A DNA stretch of 64,000 nt, taken from the NCBI GenBank assembly GCA_030710605.1, contig CP092874.1:45968665-46032664 (forward strand), read 5' to 3'. The stretch is from Cordylochernes scorpioides (taxonomy: Eukaryota; Arthropoda; Arachnida; Pseudoscorpiones; Chernetidae). Made by a program: the position numbers and the translations under genes. The notes under the pieces were generated by a model that ran no database searches, was not told where the DNA came from, and was given only the letters and a program-made list of their open reading frames with translations. Below are positions 43,679-62,475 of the stretch, piece after piece. Positions within the stretch are counted from its first letter, which is position 1. Every line of letters begins with the position of its first letter.

Positions 43679-46600
43679 TTATTCTCGGGTAATAAATGGT
43701 CGAAGTTGAGATATGTGAACGCGTCTTGCTTGCTTTTGGTCTTTCAGAGAGATATCGTAGGTTACATCAGATATCTTTTTTTGAATGACAAATGGTCCTT
43801 CATATTTTGGTGATGTCTTGATGAGACGAGGGTCGTTGAAGGCAATTTTTTTTATGACTAAGTCTCCTTCTTTAAAGACATACTTGGGGTGATGGCTATC
43901 GTGTTTAATCTTCCACTTACTTCTAATTTGTTCTGTCCGCAGGCTAGCTTTCTTCCTGGCTTCTTCAATTGTAATTGGAGTTTGGTCGGCAAATTCGGGT
44001 ACATTACCGATTCCATACATTAAGAAAAGCGGTGAAAAACCAGTCACGTCATGTGGTGTGGAATTATAATTTTTGACAACTTGCGGTAACAATGAGCTCC
44101 ATTTACATCTATGTTTCTCTAGAACAGCTATTCTCAGTTTTGTCATTATCGTATCATTTAATTTCTCACAAATGCCATTGCACTGAGGATGATAAGGCGA
44201 AGTATATGTGTTTTTAATTCCTTGTAAAGAAAGAAATTTGTTGAACTCTTTTGATATAAAGTTTTTGCCATTATCTGTTAAGATAGTATTGATCGAATTA
44301 ACATATTTGATTATCTTATCAAGACATTGAGTGACAGCTTGAGCAGTGTTTGTTATTGTGGGATATGCCCATAGATAACGAGTTGCGTGATCAACAAAAA
44401 CTTGAATGAATTTATGCTTTGTGTTAGCTGCTGCTGTTCCCAGTACAATAGTGTCACAACCGATCATTTGTAATGGTTGGATATTTGACGTTGGAGTGAT
44501 CATTTCTCCTAAAGTTGGTTCATGTCTGACCTTCACTAGTTGACAAGATTTACAAGATCGAACATAATTCTTGATATCAGTTGTTATTCCTTTCCACCAA
44601 TAACATTGAGTTATAAGTTTGCATGTTTTGGTTATTGATGGGTGACTCAATGAATCGTGATATTCTTCCAATAATTTTTTGGTAAGCGAGTTTGGGACAA
44701 CTGCTTTAAAAACTCCTTTTTGTTTGATCATTACCACACCGTCGTGAGTGTGGGAATTTTTCAAGAAACTCAAATCTGAATTTTGTTGGTGTTCTTGAAG
44801 TTCTTGAGTTGCAATGTTAACAACTGGGAGTCTTGATAAGGCGTCAACATGAGTTTGTTGCTTTCCAGAACGATGAACGATGTTACATGATTTCGAGGAT
44901 AAACAAAGAATCCATCTAAAATACTTAGGTTTCGGTTTCTTCATGGTGAAAAGCCATTGGAGCGCCGCATGATCAGTGATGATTTCAAATGGTTGGTTTT
45001 CTATGTATACATGAAAGTGATCAGTTGCTTGTATCACGGCTAGGCATTCCATCTCATAAGCAGAATAATTCTCTTGGTGTGGTTGCAGTGTTTTGGAGTA
45101 ATAAGCAATTACATGTTCCTCATTGTCTGGACCAATTTGTGTTAGGATTGCTCCAATTCCATATTTGGAGGCATCTGTATAAACTTTAGAGGGGTAGTCC
45201 GGGTTGTAAATAGCAAGGACAGGTTTTGTAGATAGTGCCATTTTAAGTTTAGCGAATGACTCCTCTACTTCCTCATTCCAGATGAAGGGCTGATTCTTCC
45301 GAGTGAGTCGAACCAAGGGGAATGAAATTTTAGAAAAGTCCTTCACAAATTTTCTGTAATAATTTGCCAATCCCATGAACTGACGAACTTTCTTTACAGT
45401 ATCAGGTCTTGGAAAGTCTTGAATAGATTTTACTTTTCCTGGATCAGGTTTTAATTGATTGTGACTGATGATATGTCCGAGGTATTTTACTTCAGTTCTT
45501 CCAAAAATACATTTCGACAATTTTAATTTCATGTTGTACTGTCTTAATTTGTCAAAAACTTTACTAAGAAGCTCTATGTGCTCTTGCCATGTTTTCGTGT
45601 ACACCAATATGTCATCTTGGAAAGAGCAAGTTCCTTTCCATAATAATTCACCTAGAATATGTTGGATTATCCTTTGAAACGTTGAAGCAGCATTTTTTAA
45701 ACCAAAGGGCATCATTAAAAACTCATAATGACCATCGTTTGTGACGAATGCAGTTTTTTGAATAGATTGCGGGTCCATTTCGATCTGCCAATAACCCCAT
45801 GCAACATCAAGGGTAGAGAAGAATTTGGATCCATGCAATCGATCAAACATGTCCTGTATGTGAGGTAGGGGTTGCCTGTTATCCAGTGTGATCTCATTAA
45901 GACGTCTGTAATCAATGCACATCCTTTTATTTCCATCCTTCTTGGGAACCATAACAACAGGAAATGCCCAAGGAGAATCTGAAGTTCTTATTAACTTGTG
46001 TTCAAGAAGTTCTTTAACTTGTTCAGCTATCTCTTCATATTCTTTTAGAGGACGACGATAGGGTCTAAGAGAAATTGGTTGTTCACTTTTCGTGATGATC
46101 TTATGTTGTATAGCTACTTTTCCCAAATCAATAGCATGCTGAGAAAATTCATTCCTATTGTGTTCAAGTAATTCTTTTAATTCATGTTCTCTTATCTCTT
46201 CTAGATGATTTACAAGAATTGGATTTTGTAATCCATCAAATTTGGTGTAAATTGTTTTGTCTTTGACATCTATTAAAAGATTAAAAAGAGATGCAACATC
46301 TAATCCGATCAAGAGTGGATATTTAAAGTTCTTCATTACATGGAGAGTTACAGGTTTAATTAGTTTATCTATTCTTACCTTGGTCTGAAGGCTTCCACAT
46401 GTCCTGGTAACACCATCCGCTTGGCTGATGTGAATGTCTGAATTTGGTTGAAGTTGAAGACGGGTTCGCTTGAACAATCGCCAATTGATTATTGATACTG
46501 TTGCTCCAGTATCCACAAATGCTTGCGCAGGAATTCCATTTACTTCAACGCTTATGTTGATAAGCTTGAAAGCTCCTTGTGTAGGGGTATTTGTCAAAGT

Positions 46601-47314
46601 ACTTACATTCAACAATTCCGGGGCTCCGCATACTTGTTTCACTGAAGTGTTTTGATTAGGCCTATCCTTTTTATAATTAGGATCATAATCCTCACAATCT
46701 GTGACCCAATGTTTAATTTTTATTCCCTTTTTCGAACATATTGGACACCAGAATGGGCAAACATTTTTTCTATTATCATTATTTTTTGTCGCGAGATGTA
46801 TTTTGTTTTTAGGCTTAAACTGAATTGAAGCCCTATTTTGTTCAATTGAAGCTGCGATATGAAACCATTTTGTGGCGTCAGTTGGCTGTGCAGCCACAAT
46901 TAAATCTTTCCAATCATTTGGAAGTCCGTCTGTTAATAAATGAATTTTTTCCTCCTTCGTTAGATGGGTTTGATTTAACAGGCGAATTTTATCTTGAAAA
47001 TAATTTTCTATTGATTCTTCTCGTTTTAATCTTCGATGTGATGCTGAGACAATTGGATTTGCGTTGTATGAACCAAATCTTTGAATCAACTTTTCCTTTA
47101 TAACTTCCCATTTTTTTATTGCAGGATTTGAAATAATCTCGTCTGCATACCATTCAAGTGCTGAATCAGTCAAGTAGTACATAAGATTTTTTATTTTTTC
47201 ATCTTCTTTTAAAGAATTATTTTCAAAATCATATAATTTGATCCATGACTCAGGCCTAATTGCCGACTTCGAGCCGTTGAATTTTTGCAACCGGTTGTTT
47301 GGATTTTCCGCCAT
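43679..47314 (-). CDS. Gag-Pol polyprotein of the intact Gypsy element (1,211 aa)
   Basis: The frame also reads open upstream to 47347 through the primer site, but the first ATG is at 47314 (MAENPNNRLQKF), so that start is chosen. Residues 1-170 are retrotransposon gag. A Cys/His knuckle lies at about 190-207 (CPICSKK...KHWVTDC). The protease has AFVDTGATVSI (Asp 268). RT covers about 420-610 with DYRRLNE, LDVAWGYWQI, MPFGLKNA and an active box SFQDDILVY (Phe 565 replaces the usual Tyr). RNase H has YTDASKYGIGA (Asp 714), AYEMECLAV and TDHAALQW. The integrase HHCC block is at about 885-923 (YHDSLSH..CKSC). The catalytic triad is Asp 954, Asp 1014 and Glu 1050, with 35 residues between the last two. 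A GPF-type C-terminal module (YEGPFVIQKK) follows. Gag and pol are fused in one frame, so stoichiometry must be set otherwise than by frameshifting. Confidence 0.95.
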   Translation of the reverse strand: MAENPNNRLQKFNGSKSAIRPESWIKLYDFENNSLKEDEKIKNLMYYLTDSALEWYADEIISNPAIKKWEVIKEKLIQRFGSYNANPIVSASHRRLKREESIENYFQDKIRLLNQTHLTKEEKIHLLTDGLPNDWKDLIVAAQPTDATKWFHIAASIEQNRASIQFKPKNKIHLATKNNDNRKNVCPFWCPICSKKGIKIKHWVTDCEDYDPNYKKDRPNQNTSVKQVCGAPELLNVSTLTNTPTQGAFKLINISVEVNGIPAQAFVDTGATVSIINWRLFKRTRLQLQPNSDIHISQADGVTRTCGSLQTKVRIDKLIKPVTLHVMKNFKYPLLIGLDVASLFNLLIDVKDKTIYTKFDGLQNPILVNHLEEIREHELKELLEHNRNEFSQHAIDLGKVAIQHKIITKSEQPISLRPYRRPLKEYEEIAEQVKELLEHKLIRTSDSPWAFPVVMVPKKDGNKRMCIDYRRLNEITLDNRQPLPHIQDMFDRLHGSKFFSTLDVAWGYWQIEMDPQSIQKTAFVTNDGHYEFLMMPFGLKNAASTFQRIIQHILGELLWKGTCSFQDDILVYTKTWQEHIELLSKVFDKLRQYNMKLKLSKCIFGRTEVKYLGHIISHNQLKPDPGKVKSIQDFPRPDTVKKVRQFMGLANYYRKFVKDFSKISFPLVRLTRKNQPFIWNEEVEESFAKLKMALSTKPVLAIYNPDYPSKVYTDASKYGIGAILTQIGPDNEEHVIAYYSKTLQPHQENYSAYEMECLAVIQATDHFHVYIENQPFEIITDHAALQWLFTMKKPKPKYFRWILCLSSKSCNIVHRSGKQQTHVDALSRLPVVNIATQELQEHQQNSDLSFLKNSHTHDGVVMIKQKGVFKAVVPNSLTKKLLEEYHDSLSHPSITKTCKLITQCYWWKGITTDIKNYVRSCKSCQLVKVRHEPTLGEMITPTSNIQPLQMIGCDTIVLGTAAANTKHKFIQVFVDHATRYLWAYPTITNTAQAVTQCLDKIIKYVNSINTILTDNGKNFISKEFNKFLSLQGIKNTYTSPYHPQCNGICEKLNDTIMTKLRIAVLEKHRCKWSSLLPQVVKNYNSTPHDVTGFSPLFLMYGIGNVPEFADQTPITIEEARKKASLRTEQIRSKWKIKHDSHHPKYVFKEGDLVIKKIAFNDPRLIKTSPKYEGPFVIQKKISDVTYDISLKDQKQARRVHISQLRPFITRE

Positions 47315-47348
47315 TTTTTTTTTCCGTATCCTTTTCGACTGCGCCAAA

Positions 47349-47664
47349 TGCCACGTTTTTATTTTTAAAAACGCTAATTTTAGTTTAGTAAAACTTTATT
47401 TTTAAAGTTTATTATTTTAAAAGTGAAATGTTTGTTAATGAAATAGACATTTTGCCTAAACTCATTTATTGCTGCTTTCTTTTACAAGCCATTTGTTTAT
47501 GTGTATTTTTACATATCGTTTTTATTGAGTTTTTACTAATTTAGTATGTACATCATTGACTTTTAATGAATGGAAAATAAAAAATGAAAATAAACATATG
47601 AAAAATTAAAATAACATTTTAAAGGAAATTATGTTCAATTGAAAATTGTTTTTGTAACGTCTCA
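47349..47664 (-). repeat. 5' LTR of the intact Gypsy
   Basis: 316 bp, nearly identical to 43344-43658, followed on the element strand by TTTGGCGCAGTCG, the primer site candidate. Confidence 0.94.
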
Positions 47665-47669
47665 ATATA

Positions 47670-48320
47670 TATATCTTAATTTTAATAATGTGATATGTAA
47701 GTAATAAAGTATGACGTCTTTTCTAGTCGTCTCAAAGTGACAACAGCTTGCCACCGGACCCCAGGGGAGGGGAGGATGACCCACATAAGACTGACCAATG
47801 AGCATCAACACCCGGGGGATCCAGAGAGGGACAAAAAGGGCGTTGGTCCGGATGTTGACAGTTAGTTAGGTGACAGTGGATATCTCGGAGAGGCCCGCTC
47901 AGTCTATGTCCGTTGTCATCTCACGGCGGCCCTCGTGGCTGCCGTTTTGGCTCCTCTCTGCCCCCGCGGCTTCAGGCTGGACGCCGATCATTTCACTGTT
48001 AATCCTCAACTTTCCACTGGTCCTGCGTACGACGTACTAGGAGAGCGTCTTTTGATCCCAAACTTTGTCCTTACTGTCCTGTGCGGACTTCCCACTCTGC
48101 ACGCCTTGCCACTCAACCCCGACTACTTCCAACTCACTTGTTGGCTTACCTGGGTTTACGGCATATATATATATTATAGACAGATTTATGTATTATAAAA
48201 TCACCATTTGTATTTTGGTACACTGTGCGACTTCACTGCTCTCTTTGATGTGAGAAATAAATAAATTGTTCTGGAGGCTACTTAAAGTAGAGTTATCTCA
48301 TTATTCTCTTATATAAATTT
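47670..48320 (+). repeat. LTR-like sequence X with gag start downstream
   Basis: Starts near TGTGATATGTAAGTAATAAAG (about 47689). It contains a C-rich leader shared with 60236-60700 (tcacggcggccctcgtgg, ctttgtccttactgtcc) and ends with gtgagaaataaataaattgt and gtagagttatctcattattc, shared in reverse with 55320-55440. It is followed by a gag start, so it is read as the 5' LTR of a Gypsy-type element. It appears to be cut off in the gag. Confidence 0.65.
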
Positions 48321-48325
48321 GTAGG

Positions 48326-48444
48326 ATGGTTGAACCACGCTCTGGTAAGATGACACAGGATAGAATCAAGGTTGAAGAGTCTGCCAAGCCGCAACATGGT
48401 GCAACAAAATATAAGCAAACATATTCATTTAAAAATTTAATTTA
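48326..48444 (+). pseudogene. Truncated gag N-terminus
   Basis: An ATG 14 bases after ttatataaattt opens MVEPRSGKMTQDRIKVEESA, the same start as the gag fragment on the minus strand at 55316. After about 30 residues the similarity ends and a stop follows. It is a fragment, not a gene. Confidence 0.7.
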
Positions 48445-49216
48445 ATCTAAAAATGCTGTTGAATTGATTTGATGGAAAGTGATAATTAGAGAAACGTGTG
48501 AATTATAGGTCACTACATAATTCAAGGTAAAATTATATTCAATTGTATTTTTAATTGTTGTGTTGAAAGTATGATGAAAGGAGAAAAAATAATATATATT
48601 TCGGGTGTGAACTTCTATCACAATTTAAACAAATATTATCTATATATATATTAATAATATTTTTCTAGTTTTGGAAAAAAGAGGAAAGTAAAATATCAAG
48701 AACTACATATTTCGAATTAATTTTGAGTCAGAACAGCAAACTAATTCTGTATCAAATAGTATTGTTATGAGAATTTCAAGATTTATAAAAACAATTTTAT
48801 AAATCTTGAAATTCTCATAACGCGATACTATATATATATATATATATATTATGAATAATTTGTTTGTTATTAGATAAAGGGTTGATAAGACAAAGGATCG
48901 ATAAGATAAAGGGTTGGTGCAGTCGAGATAGAAAAATAAATAATTATTTACCGTCAAGTAGCTTTTATTTTCAATTACTTGAGGAAATATTACACATTAG
49001 TTATTTTCACATTATATAGAATTTATAAAGTTAATCCTATATTAGTGATTCAAAAAGATAGATATGTTAACTACCCATATTTACAACAAAACTATACAAC
49101 AAAACTGAAAGTCTTTCTAAAAACTATTAATATATATAGTCACGACCGTCTGTCGTGGCCTCTGTCACGGATAATATACAGTTATCATCGTCATGCGTTC
49201 TTAATTCTGTCACCGT
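48445..49216. other. AT-rich spacer with a perfect palindrome
   Basis: No gene was seen. It holds the palindrome at 48764-48821 and a (TA)n run at about 48830-48850. Confidence 0.55.
48764..48821. repeat. Perfect 27-bp-arm palindrome
   Basis: gttatgagaatttcaagatt... (48764-48790) pairs without mismatch with 48795-48821 around the loop acaa. Imperfect extension tagtat/atacta occurs outside. It is AT-rich and would form a stable hairpin. Confidence 0.88.
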
Positions 49217-49287
49217 TTGCTTTTGGTTCAGTGGTAGAATGCTCGCCTGCCACGCGGGCGCCCCGGGTTCGATTCCCGGTCGATGCA
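49217..49287 (+). tRNA. tRNA-Gly(GCC), acceptor stem disrupted (probable pseudogene)
   Basis: The body ggttcagtggtagaat, anticodon arm cgcctgccacgcggg with anticodon GCC, T-arm ccgggttcgattcccgg and 3' strand TCGATGC plus discriminator A match animal tRNA-Gly(GCC). A T-run follows, suiting Pol III termination. But the first seven bases (ttgcttt) cannot pair with TCGATGC, whose partner should be GCATCGA. The 5' strand of the acceptor stem has been replaced, so it is probably not a working tRNA. Internal A and B boxes are intact, so transcription is possible. Confidence 0.8.
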
Positions 49288-49416
49288 TTTTTTTTTTTAC
49301 AATTTTTAAAACTCATTTATATATTATACAAGAATGACATCCACGGCGCCAATTTATAATTGTAACGAATCGTATTTGAATAAAAGCATTTAATTGGGTA
49401 AACCCCGGGGGTTGTA

Positions 49417-49696
49417 GATTATAAACACAATAAGACCACATCCATGATAAGGTACAGTTTGGATTATAGATTATAAACACAAGGTAATAAGACCACATCC
49501 ATGATAAGGTACAATTTGGATTATAGATTATAAACACAAAGTAATAAGACAACATCCATGATAAGGTACAGTTTGGATTATAGATTATAAACACAAGGTA
49601 ATAAGACCACATCCATGATAAGGCACAATTTGAATTATAGATTATAAACACAAGGTGACAAGACCACATCCATGATAAGGTACAATTTGGATAATT
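49417..49696. repeat. Minisatellite, ~58-bp unit, about five copies
   Basis: The unit contains attataaacacaaggtaata, agaccacatccatgataagg and tacaatttggattatag. Copies differ at a few positions and the first is shortened. Confidence 0.9.
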
Positions 49697-50065
49697 ACTA
49701 TATATAGTCACGAGAGTCTTTCCTGATCAGTCAGTCATTGGCCGGCCACCTCTGTCGCGGATGCGCGCGCACAGGGAGGTCACGTGCTCGCCGACAGGAA
49801 GATAGGTCTACTGATCGATGAGAATTATATAAAAAAAGAAAGAAAAACATTTTGAAATTAAAAACTTTATTTTAAAAATAAATATATATTTTAAAAAACA
49901 GAATATTCTAATTTTCAATAAATTTCATAGATATATTATCCAGAAAAAAATAATTTTGATAACTTGATTACTAATTGATTACTTTGATTACTAATTGCCC
50001 ATATTCTTCTGCTTTTACTTAATATTACCTATTTACTAAAATAATAATTGTATGCAAAAAAAAAC
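49697..50065. other. Spacer upstream of the Helitron gene
   Basis: Contains tatatagtcacga and cctctgtcgcggatgcg, echoing tatatagtcacga and cctctgtcacggat at about 49133-49176. It probably holds the 5' end of the Helitron, but I could not fix the 5'-TC terminus. Confidence 0.4.
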
Positions 50066-52384
50066 ATGCCTCCTAAGAAATATAACTCTGAAGAAGAAAG
50101 AAAGGCCGCAGCTGCCGCAAGAAGGCAAAAAGCAAGGCAACAAGAAACAGCTGATCAACTCGCTGAACGACTCCAACGAGATGCTGAAGCTAAACGTCTA
50201 CTTCTAAGTAATGAAACAGCAGATCAACGTGCTGCAAGACTTCTGCGTAAAGCTGAAACTTCTAGAAGTCGTATTGACAATGAAACAGCAGAACAACGTG
50301 CTGCAAGACTTCTGCGTAATGCTGAAGCTAAACGTCTAAAACTAGATAGTGAAACAGCAGACCAACGTGCTGCAAGACATCAACGTGATGCTAAGGCTCA
50401 CAGGCGATATCGGCGACCGACAATGCGAACTAATGCAATTGATTTGGCTAATATAGATGAAAAATAAATTATTGAATTTTACTGTGGCCAAATGAATGAA
50501 AGATGCGAATTTTGCAATTCTTTAAATTCCATGGGAGAAAGACCCCCAGATAGAAAATTCTCAGCCTGCTGCCATAAAGGCAAAATAGATTTACCGGAGC
50601 AGGATTATCCAGAATACCTGGAAACCTTAATGAATGGCGTTGACCATAATAGTAAATTTTTTTTTGGAAAATATTAGATCTTACAATAGCTCATTGGCAT
50701 TTGCATCCATGGGGGCAAACATTGCTACACCTCCAGGATATGTACCATACTGCTTCCGTATTCACGGTCAAATATATTATAGAACTGGAACACTTCACCC
50801 AGTAGGGGAACAGCCGCCAAATTTTGCCCAATTGTATATTTTAGATACAGCAGAGGCTACAAGAGAAAGACTTTCCATCCCTGAGAACCACGGATGTGAT
50901 GAGAATGTTTTGAATAAACTTGCAGAACTGTTAGCAAACATAAATAAGTTTGCAATGTCTTATAAAATGATTCGTGACGTAGAAAAGGAAGCCATACAAG
51001 AAGCTAATAATAATGGCACAGAACTACCAAATATATTGTAATGGCAATTAAGAACGATCGGACTCAAGACGTTCGACGATACAACAAGCCAACTGCCAGT
51101 GAAGTTGCAGTTGTCTTCCAAAATGATGATGGTGAACCTCCATTTATTCGTGATATACTGATTCATTTAAAACCAATAGAGAATCAGCCTATGTTAAAGC
51201 GAATTTTTATCTTAGATCCAAATTTGGATGCGTTGGTTTATCCACTATTTTACCCTAGAGCGGAACAAGGTTGGACTACCTATCTAAAACAGAAACCCGG
51301 CTCAAGTCAAAGACTAAGTAAAATGCAATATTATAGTTATTTGCAGTCTGTCCGAGACAAGTTTAATCCTCTTTTAAATGGGGGAAAACTAACGCAACAA
51401 TTCATAGTCGATGCGTATGTAAAAATGGAAGCAAATAGACTCCATTACATTAAAGAAAATCAGTCCAAATTTGAGAACTGAAAAATATAGTGGTCTCATG
51501 GATCATATAAACGCAAGAGCTGAAAATGAAAATCATAACGTTGGAAAGGCAATAATCCTTCCATCAAGCTTTGAAGGCAGTCCAAGAAATATGCAACAAA
51601 GGTACCAAGATGCCATGTCAATTGTGATAAAATATGGACACCAGATTTATTTGTTACAAAGACTTGGAATCCAAAATGGAAAGAAATAACTGAAAATCTT
51701 GAACCTTGGCAAAAAGCCGAACATAGACCAGATTTGGTGCCACGTGTCTTTAACTTAAAGTTAAAAGAGTTGCTAAAAGAAATAAAAGCAGGGCTATTTG
51801 GAAAGTTAACTGCAATGGTCCATGTAATTGAATTTCAAAAAAGAGGGCTTCCTCACGCCCACATATTAATAATATTGGCTGCAGAGGCAAAATATAATAC
51901 AGAAGCGGATATAGACAGAATTGTATCTGCCGAAATTCCAGATAAGGAAATATTTCCGGTTCTTTTCGGAATAGTTACAAAACACATGATTCATGGTCCA
52001 TGTGTAAAAAATAATCCAAGGTCCCCATGTATGGAAAATGGTCAATGCACGAAAAAATTTCCAAAAGATTTGATTCAATCAACAATTATGAACGTTGATG
52101 GATATCCAAAATACAAACGAAGAGTGATATCTGAACTGGTTTATGTAAATTCTAAACCTATCAATAATTCATGGGTTGTTCCATACAACGCATACATATT
52201 GTTAAGATTCAACTGCCATATAAATGTTGAAATCTGTTCATCTGTACAGGCAGTTAAATACTTATTTTAGTATGTATTCAAAGGCCATGATTCTGCCAAT
52301 ATAGAAATACGTGAACCAACTAAATTTGTAGATTCAAGATATGTTGGCCCTGTAGAAGCAGGTTGGAGAATATTCGGATTTCAT
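50066..52384 (+). pseudogene. Helitron Rep region: repeat N-terminus and HUH nuclease
   Basis: The ATG at 50066 starts MPPKKYNSEEERK, followed by four 23-residue charged repeats of the type ETADQRAARLLRKAE (about 50147-50409, a coiled-coil candidate). A zinc-like segment CEFCNSLNSMGERP and CCHKGKI follows. The helitron-like N block contains FASMGANI and YCFRIHGQIYYRTGTLHP (about 50700-50790). The HUH motif is FQKRGLPHAHILI (about 51835). The tyrosine motif is KYLF-stop-YVFKGHDSA (about 52255-52290). There the residue between the two tyrosine-bearing halves, normally Lys, is a TAG codon (52268-52270), while both tyrosines are kept. Other stops or frameshifts occur at about 50467, 50670, 51040, 51480 and 51690. 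Confidence 0.88.
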
Positions 52385-54575
52385 ATGCATGAACAATCCC
52401 ATGCTATAATACGGTTAGCCGCCCACTTGCCTGATTATCAAGATGTTGTATTTAATGACGATATCAGCGATGAACAGCTGCAAAATAGACTGAGTCGAGA
52501 CTCAACATTAATGGGTTATTTTAAACTGAACCGTGCTGATCCTAATGCAAGGGAATACTTATATCGTGAAATCCCCGAGCATTATACTTGGAATTGCAAA
52601 GAGAGGCAATGGAACACGCGAAAATTGCGTGGAGCTAAAGTGATTGGCAGAATGTATACTGTCAGCGTTAAAGAACAAGAGCGCTATTATTTGAGGTTAC
52701 TTCTCTTAAATGTAAAGGCAGCTCAGTCATTCGACGATTTAAAAACTGTCGACGAAATATTATATCCCAGATTTAGAGAAGCTGCACTTGCAAGAGGTCT
52801 TTTCCTCGATGATAGTGTATGGAAATCTACACTGGAAGATGGCGTCGTCATGAACATGCCAAAACAACTTCGAGAATTGTTTGCATATATTTGCGTATTT
52901 GGACCACCCGCAAAACCACGCGAATTGTGGGATGAATTTAAGCCTCAATTGTGTGAGGACTTTTGCCGAAAGCATCATGCTAATGATGATGCATGCACCC
53001 ATTGCGAGGGTTATGCCATGAAAGAAATTAGTGACATATTTCTAAGTCATAGAGTTAATTATAACGAATATGGGCTTCCAGTGCCAGCATGGAACATCCC
53101 TGATGTTCCATGTTCAGAGGAATATATTTCTGATACTGAAGTTCTTTTAGCCGCTGATAAAATGAGAAGTTTTAACGCTGAACAAACAGCAGCATATGAT
53201 CAAATAATGGCTGCAGTCAAATATGTCACAATGAGACCAAAATGTTTCTTCATTGATGGTCCAGGTGGGAGTGGAAAGACTTACTTCTATACCACCTTGA
53301 TGCACTCCGTTAGAGGAATGAACCAAGTTGTTCTTCTAGCTGCTACTACTGGCATTGCAGCCAATTTATTACAAGGAGGAAAAACAATGCACTCCTTATA
53401 CGGACTTCCAATTCCGTTGAATGAAACTTCCGTTTCAAATATTAAAATGACTACAATGGCTGCTGGCACCCTCCGAAAGGCAAAGCTATTTATTATTGAT
53501 GAGTGTACAATGGCTTCAAACCATGCCCTTAACACAATCGATAGACTTCTTAGAGAAGTCATGACTGAGGATAAAAGATATCCTAACCAAATTCCATTTG
53601 GTGGTAAGGTCCTCATTGTAGGAGGCGATTATCGCCAATGCCTACCAGTAATACCTCATGGTATGAGAGCACAAATTGTGCAAAGTTGTTCGAAATATTC
53701 TCAGACATGGAGCCATTTTGAGCACTTACCATTGGTAAGAAATGTAAGGGCCAGATCGGACCTCGAATACACCGAATGGCTATTAAAGCTAGGCAATGGA
53801 AGTCTTCCAACCTTTGACGATTTGGGAGCAGATCTCATTGAGATTCCCCAAGAACTAATATGAAAAGACGATATAGTCCGAGAAATATTTGGAGACACAA
53901 TTACTCCTGAATTGGTTGAAACCATCTCACAAAGAGCAATATTGTGCCCCAAGAATTACGATGTTCATAATATGAATGACCAAGTCATGGACCTTATAGT
54001 TGGCGACTACCACACTTATTTAAGTGATGATTCCGTTGTCTCAGACAGCGATGAAGAGCGGAATAATTTTCCCGTTGAATTCCTGAATAGTGTTACTCCT
54101 TCAGGAATGCCGCCTCATCGTCTAAGATTAAAGGTCGGATGCATTATTCAGCTTCTTAGAAATCTGAAGAAGGGTTTATGTAATGGAACCCGCTTTACTA
54201 TTAAATCATTAAAGAGTAACGTCATTGAGGCAGAAGTCTGACTGGCTCAAATAAAGGGGACATTGTATTGATTCCCGAATAGATTTGGCCCCATCTGAAA
54301 CAGGATTGCCCTTCATAATGAAGAGACGGCAATTTCCTGTAAAACCTGCCTTTGTCATGACCATAAATAAGGCACAAGGTCAAACGCTCGAACGTGTTGG
54401 CATTTATTTGCCGGAGCCTGTATTCGGTCACGAACAACTTTATGTTGCCTTTTCAAGAGTGAGACACAGTAGTGATGTTAAAATCATGATTAAAGATTCA
54501 GCACTGCAAGGCAGGCTAATTGAAGGAAGCGACAGAGTCTTTACTCGAAATGTCGTATTTAAAGAAATATTTTAA
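52385..54575 (+). pseudogene. Helitron Pif1-like helicase region
   Basis: A 492-codon open frame (52385-53863) begins in the Rep-helicase linker (YFKLNRADPNAREYLYREIP, YTWNCKERQW). It holds Walker A GPGGSGKTYFYTTLMH (about 53260), TTGIAANLLQGGKTMHSLYG, Walker B LFIIDECTMAS (about 53490) and GGDYRQCLPV (about 53625). A TGA at 53861-53863 and two further shifts (about 54240, 54280) separate it from the C-terminal motifs LRLKVGCIIQLLRNL, INKAQGQTLERVGIYLPEPV (about 54365) and YVAFSRVRHSSDVKI. The order and motifs are those of Helitron helicases, which unwind the displaced strand during rolling-circle transfer. Confidence 0.9.
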
Positions 54576-54648
54576 TCTGGCCCAGCGTGGCATAGAGGAG
54601 TAACCCTCAGTAAATATCTACATAAAGGAAGGAAAACCTATAACCCGT

Positions 54649-54719
54649 GTGATAGCACGTAGTTAAGTAATGCCCTTAACCTGATGAGTGCCAAGGCTAG
54701 GCCGAAACGTTGCTATCAC
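54649..54719 (+). ncRNA. Type III hammerhead ribozyme, complete core and loop complementarity
   Basis: Stem III pairs GTGATAGCA (54649-54657) with TGCTATCAC (54711-54719) and CGT with ACG (54658-54660/54707-54709), with one bulged T. The cleavage triplet GTA ends at 54661. Stem I pairs GTTAAG and CTTAAC (54662-54667/54675-54680) with loop TAATGCC. CTGATGA is at 54681-54687. Stem II pairs G(T)GCC with GGCC, with loop AAGGCTA. GAAA is at 54704-54707. All invariant core bases are present, and loop 1 GCC can pair with loop 2 GGC, the kind of contact natural hammerheads use. It lies on the same strand as the Helitron genes, 74 bp after them, and 10 bp before a gag fragment on the other strand. Confidence 0.85.
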
Positions 54720-54728
54720 TTTTACATA

Positions 54729-55316
54729 TTATTTGAAATCTAATTTCCAGAAGTTCTCATTGGTATTTTTAGGAAGGTTTAGATGAAGGGCAAAAGAGTA
54801 TTCTTTCTTTAACCCTCCAATAACCCAGTTTATTTTAGTCTCTTCTTCCATTTGGGGGTCGACCTTGTTGCACAGTACAAGGATATCCTCTGCGAACCTG
54901 ATTGCAGGTTCATTCCACTGTTGCATCCTTTTTAGTCTCATCTTCATTTCTTCTTTGTTGGCGTCTGAGGCAAAATCCTCAATTAGGCGGCTCTTGAAAT
55001 TTTCCCAGCTGGTGAAACTTATCTTGTGTAGGTTCAGCCAGGTTTTGGCGCTACCAATCATATTCATGGCAGCATAACGAGAGATAATGTAGTCTGCCTA
55101 ATGGTACAGGAAGCCAATTTCTTCAAGAGATTCAATCCATGGGCGAGAGTCTTCTGTTCCATCATACTTGGGGATGTCGATGTTGGGATTCAGGACAACT
55201 GGGTCGGAACTTGCATCTCGACCAATTGTTGCACCAGGTTGCGGCTTGGCAGACTCTTCAACCTTGATTCTCTCCTGTGCCGGGTCTTGCATCTTACCAG
55301 AGCGTGTTTCAACCAA
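54729..55316 (-). pseudogene. Gag fragment of an LTR retrotransposon
   Basis: Starts MVETRSGKMQDPAQERIKVE at 55316. It passes one break at 55098-55067 (in-frame stop plus indel) and continues MNMIGSAKTWLNLHK, FTSWENFKSRLIEDF, RMQQWNEPAIRFAEDILVLC and WVIGGLKKEYSFALHL, the retrotransposon gag (capsid) signature. It ends at 54729, where unrelated sequence with the hammerhead begins. There is no pol. It is the same family as the short fragment at 48326. Confidence 0.82.
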
Positions 55317-55450
55317 CCTACAATTTATATAAGGGAATAATGAGATAACTCTACTTTATGTAGCCTCCAGAATCATTTATTTATTTCTCACATCAAAGAG
55401 AGCAGTGAAGTCGCACAGTGTACATAAATACAAATGATGATTCTATAATA
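55317..55450 (-). repeat. 3' part of LTR X preceding the gag fragment
   Basis: Reverse complement of the segment around 48220-48325 (gtgcgacttcactgctctc, gtgagaaataaataaat, gagttatctcattattc). The outer part of the LTR is missing or unrecognisable. Confidence 0.7.
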
Positions 55451-56338
55451 CATATATTCTGTTAAATAAAATAAATAAATATAAAATATAAATTTGAATT
55501 TAAAATAAATGAAAAATAATATTTCAAATTAAAATAAAATAGGTTCATTAGCCATGATGCAACAATTTGATAAAAGGGATGGCTTTATATAAACGCCTTA
55601 TAATTATCAATTTTATAGCAACATGCCACCTCTGGAAGGACATTAAATGCCAGAAAGCTTATTGAAATAAATTAAAGAAACACATTATGAAATTTATATA
55701 AATTATTATCGAAAAGGTCACATTATTTTATTTTATTTCACAATTCTAGAAACTTAATTCAATCTCGGTAAAAAAAAGCCACAAAAATCACCAGGGATTA
55801 AAAGTCAAAATAGAAATCCTCATATTTCCTTTATTTTTTATTTCCCCCTGTTTAAATATTCATAATATTTTTAAAATCATATTTCTCGATTTTAACGGGC
55901 GCATTATTTTAAATCGTTTCTTAAATTTATTTTTTAGTTTCTAGTGAAGCTTTGATTTTAATCGACTATATTTGATAATTTACATTATTTAGAAGTCTCG
56001 ACATTAATATTTGATGTCAAAAATCCTTTATTTAAAATATTGTCACGTAAAAAAATGAGGCAAGACAAAGATAAGGATGACAAAGCAACTCTTCGCTCAG
56101 AACAATTCAACACCTTATTTACATCAAAAAAGAGAGGCAAGGTAAGTGTTATATAAACAAATAAGTATATATTTTGAATTTAATTAAATAATTGTTCCCA
56201 CAGAGTATGTGTGTAAGATGACAAGAAAATAGGCACTAACAGTAAGAAGATAAGATTTTCTTTGTTTACGATGTTAAAAGTTTTATTTTGTTTTATCTCT
56301 TCCAAATCAATTATGTTTTATCAATATTATTGGAATCA
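55451..56338. other. AT-rich spacer; one possible small exon
   Basis: No recognised gene was found. At 56055-56141 a 29-codon frame (MRQDKDKDDKATLRSEQFNT…) ends exactly at a strong splice-donor-like GTAAGT (56142). This may be chance. Confidence 0.45.
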
Positions 56339-61098: not shown

Positions 61099-62010
61099 AT
61101 AATTATTGTATTAAAATATGGTAGGCTTCAGGAAGATCTATTTTTCTGTTGATACTGTTAGTTTGAGTGGAGATGATTGATTCTAGAAATAATCTAACCT
61201 GCTTGCTGAGTATATGCTGATAAAGGAATTTAGGGTGGTCCAGATTAAATATATGGCCTGTGTTTAATATATGTTGATATATGAGTGATTTAGGATCCCT
61301 ATTATTTATGTTTCGTTTATGTTCTGTTAATCTGAGGTGCGCGGTTCTACCAGTCTCGCCCACATAGGAGGCTGGGCAATCATGGCAAGAAACCGCGTAC
61401 ACAGCACCAGTGGAATGGATGGGGTTGTTAGGTTTATCTGCTTTGGTGATGGGATTCCTGAGAAGGGTTTCAATATTAGGAGGACTGTTGTAAAAGACTT
61501 GAATGCCGTAAGGACGAAGAATTCTGGAGATAGAAATGGAGATCGGGGAAAGGGGAAGGAGACAAGTGGCTTTATAAACAGTGGTTTGACCTTGGAGAAT
61601 AGGATCAAAAGAATGTTTTTATATGAAATATCTGGGATATCCTGCAGTGGTCAAAAGGGAAATGATTCTGGATTTTTCTATGGTTTTAAATATAGGTAAA
61701 GAGCAATGTGTGTATATTCTTTTAGTTAAGATCCTGACTGTATTGAATTTATAGGCTGTGGGACTATTGGAGGAGAAATGGGTATATAGAGATGGTATGT
61801 TCTTTTTGTGGAATACTTTTGTGTGTATCTTGTGCGGGGTGCGAATAATCAGGATATCTAGATAGGGTAAAACTAGGTCTATTTCAGATTCGTGTGTGAA
61901 TTTAATATCTGCATGGAAAGTATGTAGAGTATTGAGTATGTGCCGGAGCCTATTGGTTTTGACTATGCAAAAGATGTCATCTACATATCTCCTCCAATAA
62001 TGAATGTCAG
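61099..62010 (-). pseudogene. Penelope RT fragment and GIY-YIG endonuclease, copy 1
   Basis: Reading from 62010: HYWRRYVDDIFCIVKTNRLR (RT active box YVDD, about 61985), YLDILIIRTPHKIHTK, FNTVRILTKRIYTHC, then a stop or shift at about 61620. From 61608 come PRSPFLSPEFFVLTAFK and FSGIPSPKQINLTTPSIP, and after another shift the GIY-YIG domain AVYAVSCHDCPASYVGETGR with LRLTEHKRNINNRD (61402-61300). The frame ends INRKIDLPEAYHILIQ at 61103. The RT drives target-primed insertion and the endonuclease nicks DNA. Frame breaks at about 61610 and 61400 disable it. Confidence 0.86.
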
Positions 62011-62017
62011 AAGGCAG

Positions 62018-62475
62018 GGTTTGGGTTTTCCCCGATCTCCATTTCTATCTCCAGAATTCTTCGTCCTTACGGCATTCAAGTCTTTTACAACAGTCCACCT
62101 AATATTGCAACCCTTCTCAGGAATCCCATAACCAAAGCAGATAAACCTAACAACCCCATCCATTCCACTGGTGCTGTGTACGCGGTTTCTTGCCATGATT
62201 GCCCAGCCTCCTATGTGGACGAGACTGGTAGAACCGCGCACATCAGATTAACAGAACATAAACGAAACATAAATAATAGGGATCCTAAATCACTCATATA
62301 ACAACATATATTAAACACAGGCCATAAATATAATCTGGACCACCCTAAAATCCTTTATCAGCATATACGCAGCAAGCAGGTTAGATTATTTCTAGAATCA
62401 ATCATCTCCACTCAAACTAACAGTATCAACAGAAAAATAGATCTTCCTGAAGCCTACCATATTTTAATACAATAA
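62018..62475 (+). pseudogene. Penelope GIY-YIG domain, copy 2
   Basis: PRSPFLSPEFFVLTAFK (62030) leads, after a frameshift near 62140, into SCHDCPASYVDETGR, where Gly of the YVGETG motif is Asp. It continues RLTEHKRNINNRDPKSL, a TAA where copy 1 has TAT (about 62299), and ends INRKIDLPEAYHILIQ. A fragment only, with no RT. Confidence 0.85.

Follow-up and report, generated by a model that had tools for sequence, protein, structure and literature searches.

Hammerhead ribozymes are carried by several kinds of eukaryotic mobile elements and RNAs, among them Penelope-like elements, Terminons, animal retrozymes and circular RNAs (PMC7229834, PMC6431247), and they also occur in satellite-like repeats of Schistosoma (PMC8490949). 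Animal hammerheads of type III have been described in HDV-like animal RNAs and in termite and dipteran genomes, the available text of that report naming no host element for the genomic examples (PMC7936874), and in the 3′ untranslated regions (UTRs) of Clec2 genes of some rodents and the platypus (PMC6155905). A first-pass annotation of the locus described here had regarded the type III form as best known from plants, a statement which holds with the qualification that HDV-like animal RNAs, termites, dipterans and Clec2 genes possess it as well (PMC7936874, PMC6155905). A report of a hammerhead joined with a Helitron, a Helentron or any other DNA transposon was not found in the openly licensed papers searched, and the accessible text of PMC4918198, PMC6431247, PMC8490949, PMC12477314, PMC8969392 and PMC8704543 contains no such pairing. 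Because the literature searched joins no hammerhead with a DNA transposon, the locus appears to present a ribozyme of a known type whose carrier is of a new kind; a Helitron is an unexpected home for it, as mobile-element hammerheads are known mainly from RNA-copying elements.

The locus is situated in a stretch of 64,000 nt of the genome of the pseudoscorpion Cordylochernes scorpioides, hereafter termed the window. Direct reading of the sequence revealed a complete type III hammerhead anatomy on the plus strand (Table 1), consisting of a cleavable NUH triplet, the CUGANGA and GAAA core boxes and three helices with the open ends in stem III. Upon re-reading, the catalytic blocks, the helices of 12, 6 and 4 bp and the loops with GCC and GGC were all found as first annotated, and the assignment to type III is consistent with the data.

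Table 1. Coordinates of the hammerhead and the surrounding features in the window
Feature	Position	Strand	Remarks
tRNA-Gly(GCC)-like module	49210..49327	+	related to that at the 5′ end of the short copies; ARAGORN; Rfam tRNA 39.1 bits; joined to the ribozyme block elsewhere
Helitron Rep/PIF1-helicase reading frames	50063..54575	+	several pieces in the window copy; last stop codon ends at 54575
3′ UTR, helicase stop codon to ribozyme	54576..54648	+	shortest derivatives keep it from about 54581
Type III hammerhead ribozyme	54649..54719	+	predicted cleavage after A54661; based on anatomy, scan and simulation, energy and copies
Stem III	54649-54660 with 54707-54719	+	12 bp; bulged T54711
NUH triplet	54659-54661	+	GTA
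Stem I	54662-54667 with 54675-54680	+	6 bp
Loop I	54668..54674	+	TAATGCC; GCC at 54672-54674 able to pair with GGC of loop II
Core box CTGATGA	54681-54687	+	
Stem II	54688 and 54690-54692 with 54700-54703	+	4 bp, including G54688; bulged T54689
Loop II	54693..54699	+	AAGGCTA; GGC at 54695-54697
Core box GAAA	54704-54707	+	
Helitron 3′ region retained by the window copy	54720..54743	+	other copies continue to a hairpin; end at CTTG followed by T in 14
Ty3-type gag fragment	54744..55097	-	adjoins the broken Helitron end; outside the element; Retrotrans_gag PF03732 on 54729-55097

A loose scan for type III hammerheads produced exactly one match in the 64-kb window. When applied to 348 Mb of first-order Markov sequence built from the window, it returned 229 loose matches, none of which reached 11 pairs in stem III together with 6 in stem I and 4 in stem II. 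The core alone (CTGATGA-N10..20-GAAAC) occurs once in the window compared to a mean of 0.09 in shuffled sequences and is present in 9 of 100 shuffles. The covariance-model search of the window, which had been proposed along with the first-pass annotation, did not reach significance: Rfam RF00008 (Hammerhead_3) scored 16.6 bits (E 3.4) over 54654-54713, far below the gathering score of 48.5, which is a detection threshold and no defining trait of hammerheads. The sole Rfam match in the window at or above its gathering score was a tRNA. The unconstrained minimum-energy structure is a rival fold of -21.6 kcal/mol, compared to -21.3 kcal/mol for the hammerhead fold with the pseudoknot left out; the z-score of the fold against shuffles is -1.82, 11 of 200 shuffles folding equally well. 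Viral contigs scanned for the ribozyme gave no match.

The frames upstream of the ribozyme contain the Pfam domains Helitron_like_N, PIF1 and Pif1_2B_dom, with E-values of 4.2e-28 for the Helitron Rep (HUH) domain (PF14214) and 3.5e-55 for the PIF1 helicase (PF05970). In the window copy, 11 stops fall within one frame of 52271-54575. Some genomic copies have helicase-bearing frames of 1221, 1109 and 1016 amino acids, which point to recent activity of the family. The window copy breaks off at 54743 and therefore directly adjoins the gag fragment. At the Helitron start, 69-bp repeats in frame (50144-50392) match STPR peptide repeats (PF21107), and their number seems to vary between copies. Upstream of the element lie a 57-bp minisatellite of 4.6 units (49429-49692) and a perfect inverted repeat of 27 bp with a 4-nt spacer (48764-48821), and parts of the segment 49328-49414 are found again on either side of other copies. 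Two inverted segments, 92–96% complementary and ~7 kb apart (48184-48407 and 55226-55457), are found on either side of the Helitron. The window further harbours an open Ty3-type gag-pol frame of 1238 amino acids on the minus strand (43679-47395) and two similar protein fragments in opposite orientations (61103-62301), which presumably resemble Penelope-like GIY-YIG ends; Pfam gave no match on 61103-61618.

A genome search with 54600-54760 (161 bases) as query resulted in 137 candidates, and among the best 40 of them 35 matches end at window position 54743. A second search used the block from a short copy as query, and the best 40 of 144 candidates were scored. Both searches combined place the ribozyme-containing 3′ block at no fewer than 49 distinct positions in the genome (L051 and L026 are one locus and were counted once). 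The helicase region continues into this block in 18 of 20 long loci, the remaining two (L049 and L050) being short derivatives. Among the matches listed, 34 copies of the helicase C-terminus are 80–100% identical, and at least 28 of them have a ribozyme match (compared by hand); the other six have none listed, and the one of them that was read, L063, ends short of the ribozyme. Judged from these copies, the ribozyme is a regular part of the 3′ end of the Helitron family and lies inside the element. It is thus not located ‘immediately downstream’ of the Helitron as first annotated, since the 3′ block repeats together with the Helitron 3′ end. The comparison of genomic copies suggested at that stage bore out that the motif travels with the Helitron 3′ end to at least 49 places and is not unique. 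The alternative proposal, that an unrecognised small element sits between the Helitron and the gag fragment, found no support, as the short ribozyme-containing elements look like deletion derivatives of the Helitron (see below).

The 3′ end could be fixed in 14 of 41 copies and lies 81–90 nt beyond the ribozyme. A hairpin (TTTGTTC-GAA-GAACAAA) lies 13 nt from this end, which is formed by CTTG, and a T follows in 14 of 14 cases. Full-length copies contain the same hairpin and then continue past ACTTGCA in at least two versions, and L028, L030 and L054 break off at points other than 54743 of the window. The window copy stops at CTAA followed by T (54740-54743), which corresponds to the canonical Helitron end motif, though its relatives continue; this stop is either an alternative 3′ end used once or a coincidence. 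As the 3′ end of the family it was rejected because other copies run on beyond 54743. A further trait of Helitrons is insertion between A and T with no duplication of the target. At the 5′ end, the TACAAG of the short copies is preceded by A in the nine copies where this position is seen. The sequence TTAAA(A)TA upstream of it is common to seven of these nine and the true 5′ end may therefore lie further out. Helentrons and Helitron2 elements are characterized by asymmetric terminal inverted repeats and hairpins at both ends, and Helentrons by an endonuclease domain (PMC5148889). The short copies exhibit a short terminal match (TACAAG/CTTGTA), and an endonuclease was not among the domains detected in the six Helitron frames scanned. 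With canonical Helitron1 elements the family shares Helitron_like_N and PIF1 and apparently also the 3′ subterminal hairpin 13 nt from the end, the T adjoining the 3′ end and the lack of a target-site duplication evident by eye in the copies. It differs in that the short copies carry TACAAG...CTTG in place of the canonical TC...CTRR ends and in the ribozyme of the 3′ UTR.

Six measured short copies are 426–441 nt long, start at or near TACAAGTATC and contain a tRNA-Gly(GCC) gene with a T-run, followed by the ribozyme block. ARAGORN detected a tRNA in 9 of 10 short-copy loci, eight of these being Gly, and L058 has a ribozyme block without tRNA. The tRNA-Gly(GCC) gene and its T-run, present in the window at 49210-49287, have been multiplied by the short derivatives (L023, L028, L029, L051, L052, L055, L056 and L060). 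In L060 and L062 the same 5′ module is joined to different points of the helicase open reading frame (ORF), and the short forms therefore look like deletion derivatives of the Helitron. A second type III hammerhead was not detected in 20 long loci by a scan which covered type III and recovered 15 of the 20 known ones. A retrozyme, in which two or more hammerheads delimit a circular RNA, was rejected on this basis, although a decayed or a type I partner may have escaped such a scan.

Other Helitrons of the genome were also inspected. Among the helicase matches listed, 116 of 150 belong to other elements that are 61–66% identical to the helicase of the ribozyme-bearing family. Four such loci (L064-L067) fall into two groups according to common 3′ UTRs, and a hammerhead is absent from about 340 nt past the stop codon of each. 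L067 has an apparent canonical hairpin and an end at CTAG followed by T, as judged by eye. The ribozyme as a general Helitron feature of this genome was thus rejected (none in four loci, about 340 nt past the stop). Because these other loci are devoid of it, the ribozyme looks like an acquisition of one family, albeit in a small sample, and it was probably acquired once.

The degree of conservation was analysed in 41 copies. CTGATGA and GAAA are intact in 40 of them and accompanied by a cleavable NUH triplet in 39; CTGATGA and NUH are each broken in a single copy. A strict helix scan was passed by 27 copies and failed by 14, and in 14 of the 41 the ribozyme is identical to that of the window. 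The ribozyme of L060 contains GTG at the cleavage site and is expected to be inactive. Subfamilies A (22 copies) and B (15 copies) have the same majority letter in all 71 ribozyme columns, and their 138 flanking columns contain seven majority-letter differences and one indel; one end-of-alignment gap was set aside, and the weakest difference is supported by 17 of 22 rows in A and 12 of 15 in B. (L056 was excluded from alignment A2, and L059-L062 stand outside this 37-copy comparison.) The probability of the zero-versus-seven contrast arising by chance is about 0.05 by a simple proportion calculated by hand. Of the seven differences, just two hold in all rows. Private substitutions number 30 in 71 ribozyme columns, 13 in 62 columns of the upstream flank and 41 in 76 columns of the downstream flank. 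Relative to the upstream flank the ribozyme shows no deficit of them, as expected for neutral decay after insertion. Compensatory changes were absent at 25 pairs in 20 distinct sequences, which are too alike for this count to be informative. In the predicted loop contact, the commonest GCC/GGC pair is kept by 18, 20 and 18 of the 20 distinct sequences at the three positions, and 59 of 60 cells form a standard pair. Because the Helitron family is young, selection on the RNA is neither demonstrated nor ruled out by these data.

Three further readings of these data are unlikely. A chance fold with no catalytic history would agree with the Rfam score under the cut-off and a fold z-score of merely -1.8. 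It would, however, have to bring together all core bases, three helices and a loop kiss, in a majority sequence identical between two subfamilies; the simulated 348 Mb contain no equally strong motif, so chance explains it poorly and is in our view extremely improbable. The long stem might alternatively act at the DNA level as the subterminal hairpin at which rolling-circle strand transfer stops, its hammerhead likeness being incidental. The window copy, which ends with CTAA followed by T like a canonical Helitron terminus 24 nt beyond the stem, suggests this idea, but 14 other copies own the separate hairpin 13 nt from their CTTG end, 81–90 nt past the ribozyme, and a plain terminator hairpin requires neither CTGATGA, GAAA and NUH nor loop pairing. 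Since another hairpin lies closer to the end, the role of terminator was rejected, and we consider it very unlikely. It is also very unlikely that the short copies are retroposed SINE- or retrozyme-like elements, the 3′ half of which was picked up by the Helitron. Their outline, with a tRNA-Gly gene, a length of ~430 nt and a hammerhead, is indeed SINE-like, and animal retrozymes possess hammerheads (PMC7229834). On the other hand, a T-run (the pol III terminator) directly follows the tRNA, which itself begins almost 90 nt inside the 5′ end, neither a target-site duplication nor a poly(A) tail is visible by eye, all 14 copies with a defined 3′ end have CTTG there and T as the next base, the 20 long loci lack a second type III hammerhead, and L060 and L062 include different lengths of the helicase ORF. 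A SINE origin was rejected on the structure of the short copies and the L060 and L062 junctions.

The ribozyme is encoded on the Rep/Hel coding strand, its predicted cut lies 86 nt after the end of the helicase stop codon, and it repeats with the Helitron 3′ end. This arrangement is consistent with the initial suggestion that a self-cleaving RNA processes the 3′ part of the Helitron transcript, cleavage being predicted. In our best explanation, which we rate at even chances, the Helitron family carries a type III hammerhead at its 3′ end that cuts the Rep/helicase mRNA and limits its expression. The transcript would fold into the hammerhead with the GCC/GGC loop kiss and cleave itself after A54661. 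The cut Rep/Hel mRNA would retain a short 3′ UTR with a 2′,3′-cyclic phosphate end, lack the poly(A) tail and release the 3′ piece; low transposase expression is the most likely effect to be expected from such a cleavage. The hammerhead in the Clec2 3′ UTR serves as a precedent for the position of the ribozyme (PMC6155905). Going further, we tentatively propose, as a doubtful extension, that the ribozyme is a built-in brake of a DNA transposon which cuts the poly(A) tail off each correctly folded Rep/helicase transcript, keeps transposase low and spares the host, and that the type III hammerheads of termites and flies could be remnants of the same lineage. Helitrons are established to capture foreign DNA, and the hammerhead could likewise be a passenger captured from a retroelement or a viroid-like RNA and carried without use, the short copies keeping it as it lies within ~160 nt of the required 3′ end. 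This alternative has a smaller but substantial probability and accounts for the data nearly as well as mRNA cleavage. The ribozyme-bearing family also carries a tRNA-Gly gene, private mutations are as free in the ribozyme as in its flanks, covariation among copies is missing and the stretch read of the four other Helitron loci is free of the ribozyme. The unchanged majority letters of the ribozyme between subfamilies with changed flanks argue against a passenger, though weakly, and so do the rarely altered core columns (one broken CTGATGA and one broken NUH in 41 copies). Because covariation is absent and the conservation evidence is weak, the passenger remains a serious rival to the preferred reading of a hammerhead cutting the Rep/helicase mRNA.

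With a hammerhead as a fixed part of a rolling-circle DNA transposon, the link of hammerheads with RNA-mediated mobility is broken, and a use in the control of mRNA is indicated, as opposed to the making of transposition intermediates. The Helitron is also a candidate context, testable on sequences, for those animal type III hammerheads without a named host element. The hammerheads of Penelope-like elements, Terminons and animal retrozymes resemble that of the Helitron in being a self-cleaving motif fixed in a mobile element (PMC7229834, PMC6431247). According to the available text of these reports, they are of type I, reside in retroelements and are usually repeated, in contrast to the type III ribozyme of the Helitron, of which one was found per element. 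The type III hammerheads of plant retrozymes and viroid-like satellite RNAs have the open ends in stem III as well, and helix I (6 bp with a 6–8 nt loop) and helix II (4 bp) agree in their usual proportions (PMC7936874). Unlike these, the Helitron ribozyme has a loop II of 7 instead of 4 nt and a would-be contact in the form of a Watson-Crick GCC/GGC kiss, and it was found once per element in a DNA transposon, not in an LTR retroelement or circular RNA. Closer in this respect are the type III hammerheads of HDV-like RNAs, termites and dipterans, which are of animal origin and in which a GCC of loop I likewise pairs with a GGC of loop II (PMC7936874). In those of the HDV-like RNAs, helix I is longer and contains an internal loop and an extra hairpin, and helix II has 6 bp (PMC7936874). 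The discontinuous hammerhead of Clec2 belongs to a host gene and its helix I spans 150–1500 nt, but it shares with the Helitron ribozyme the type III fold and the location in a 3′ UTR, where a role in polyadenylation has been suggested for it (PMC6155905).
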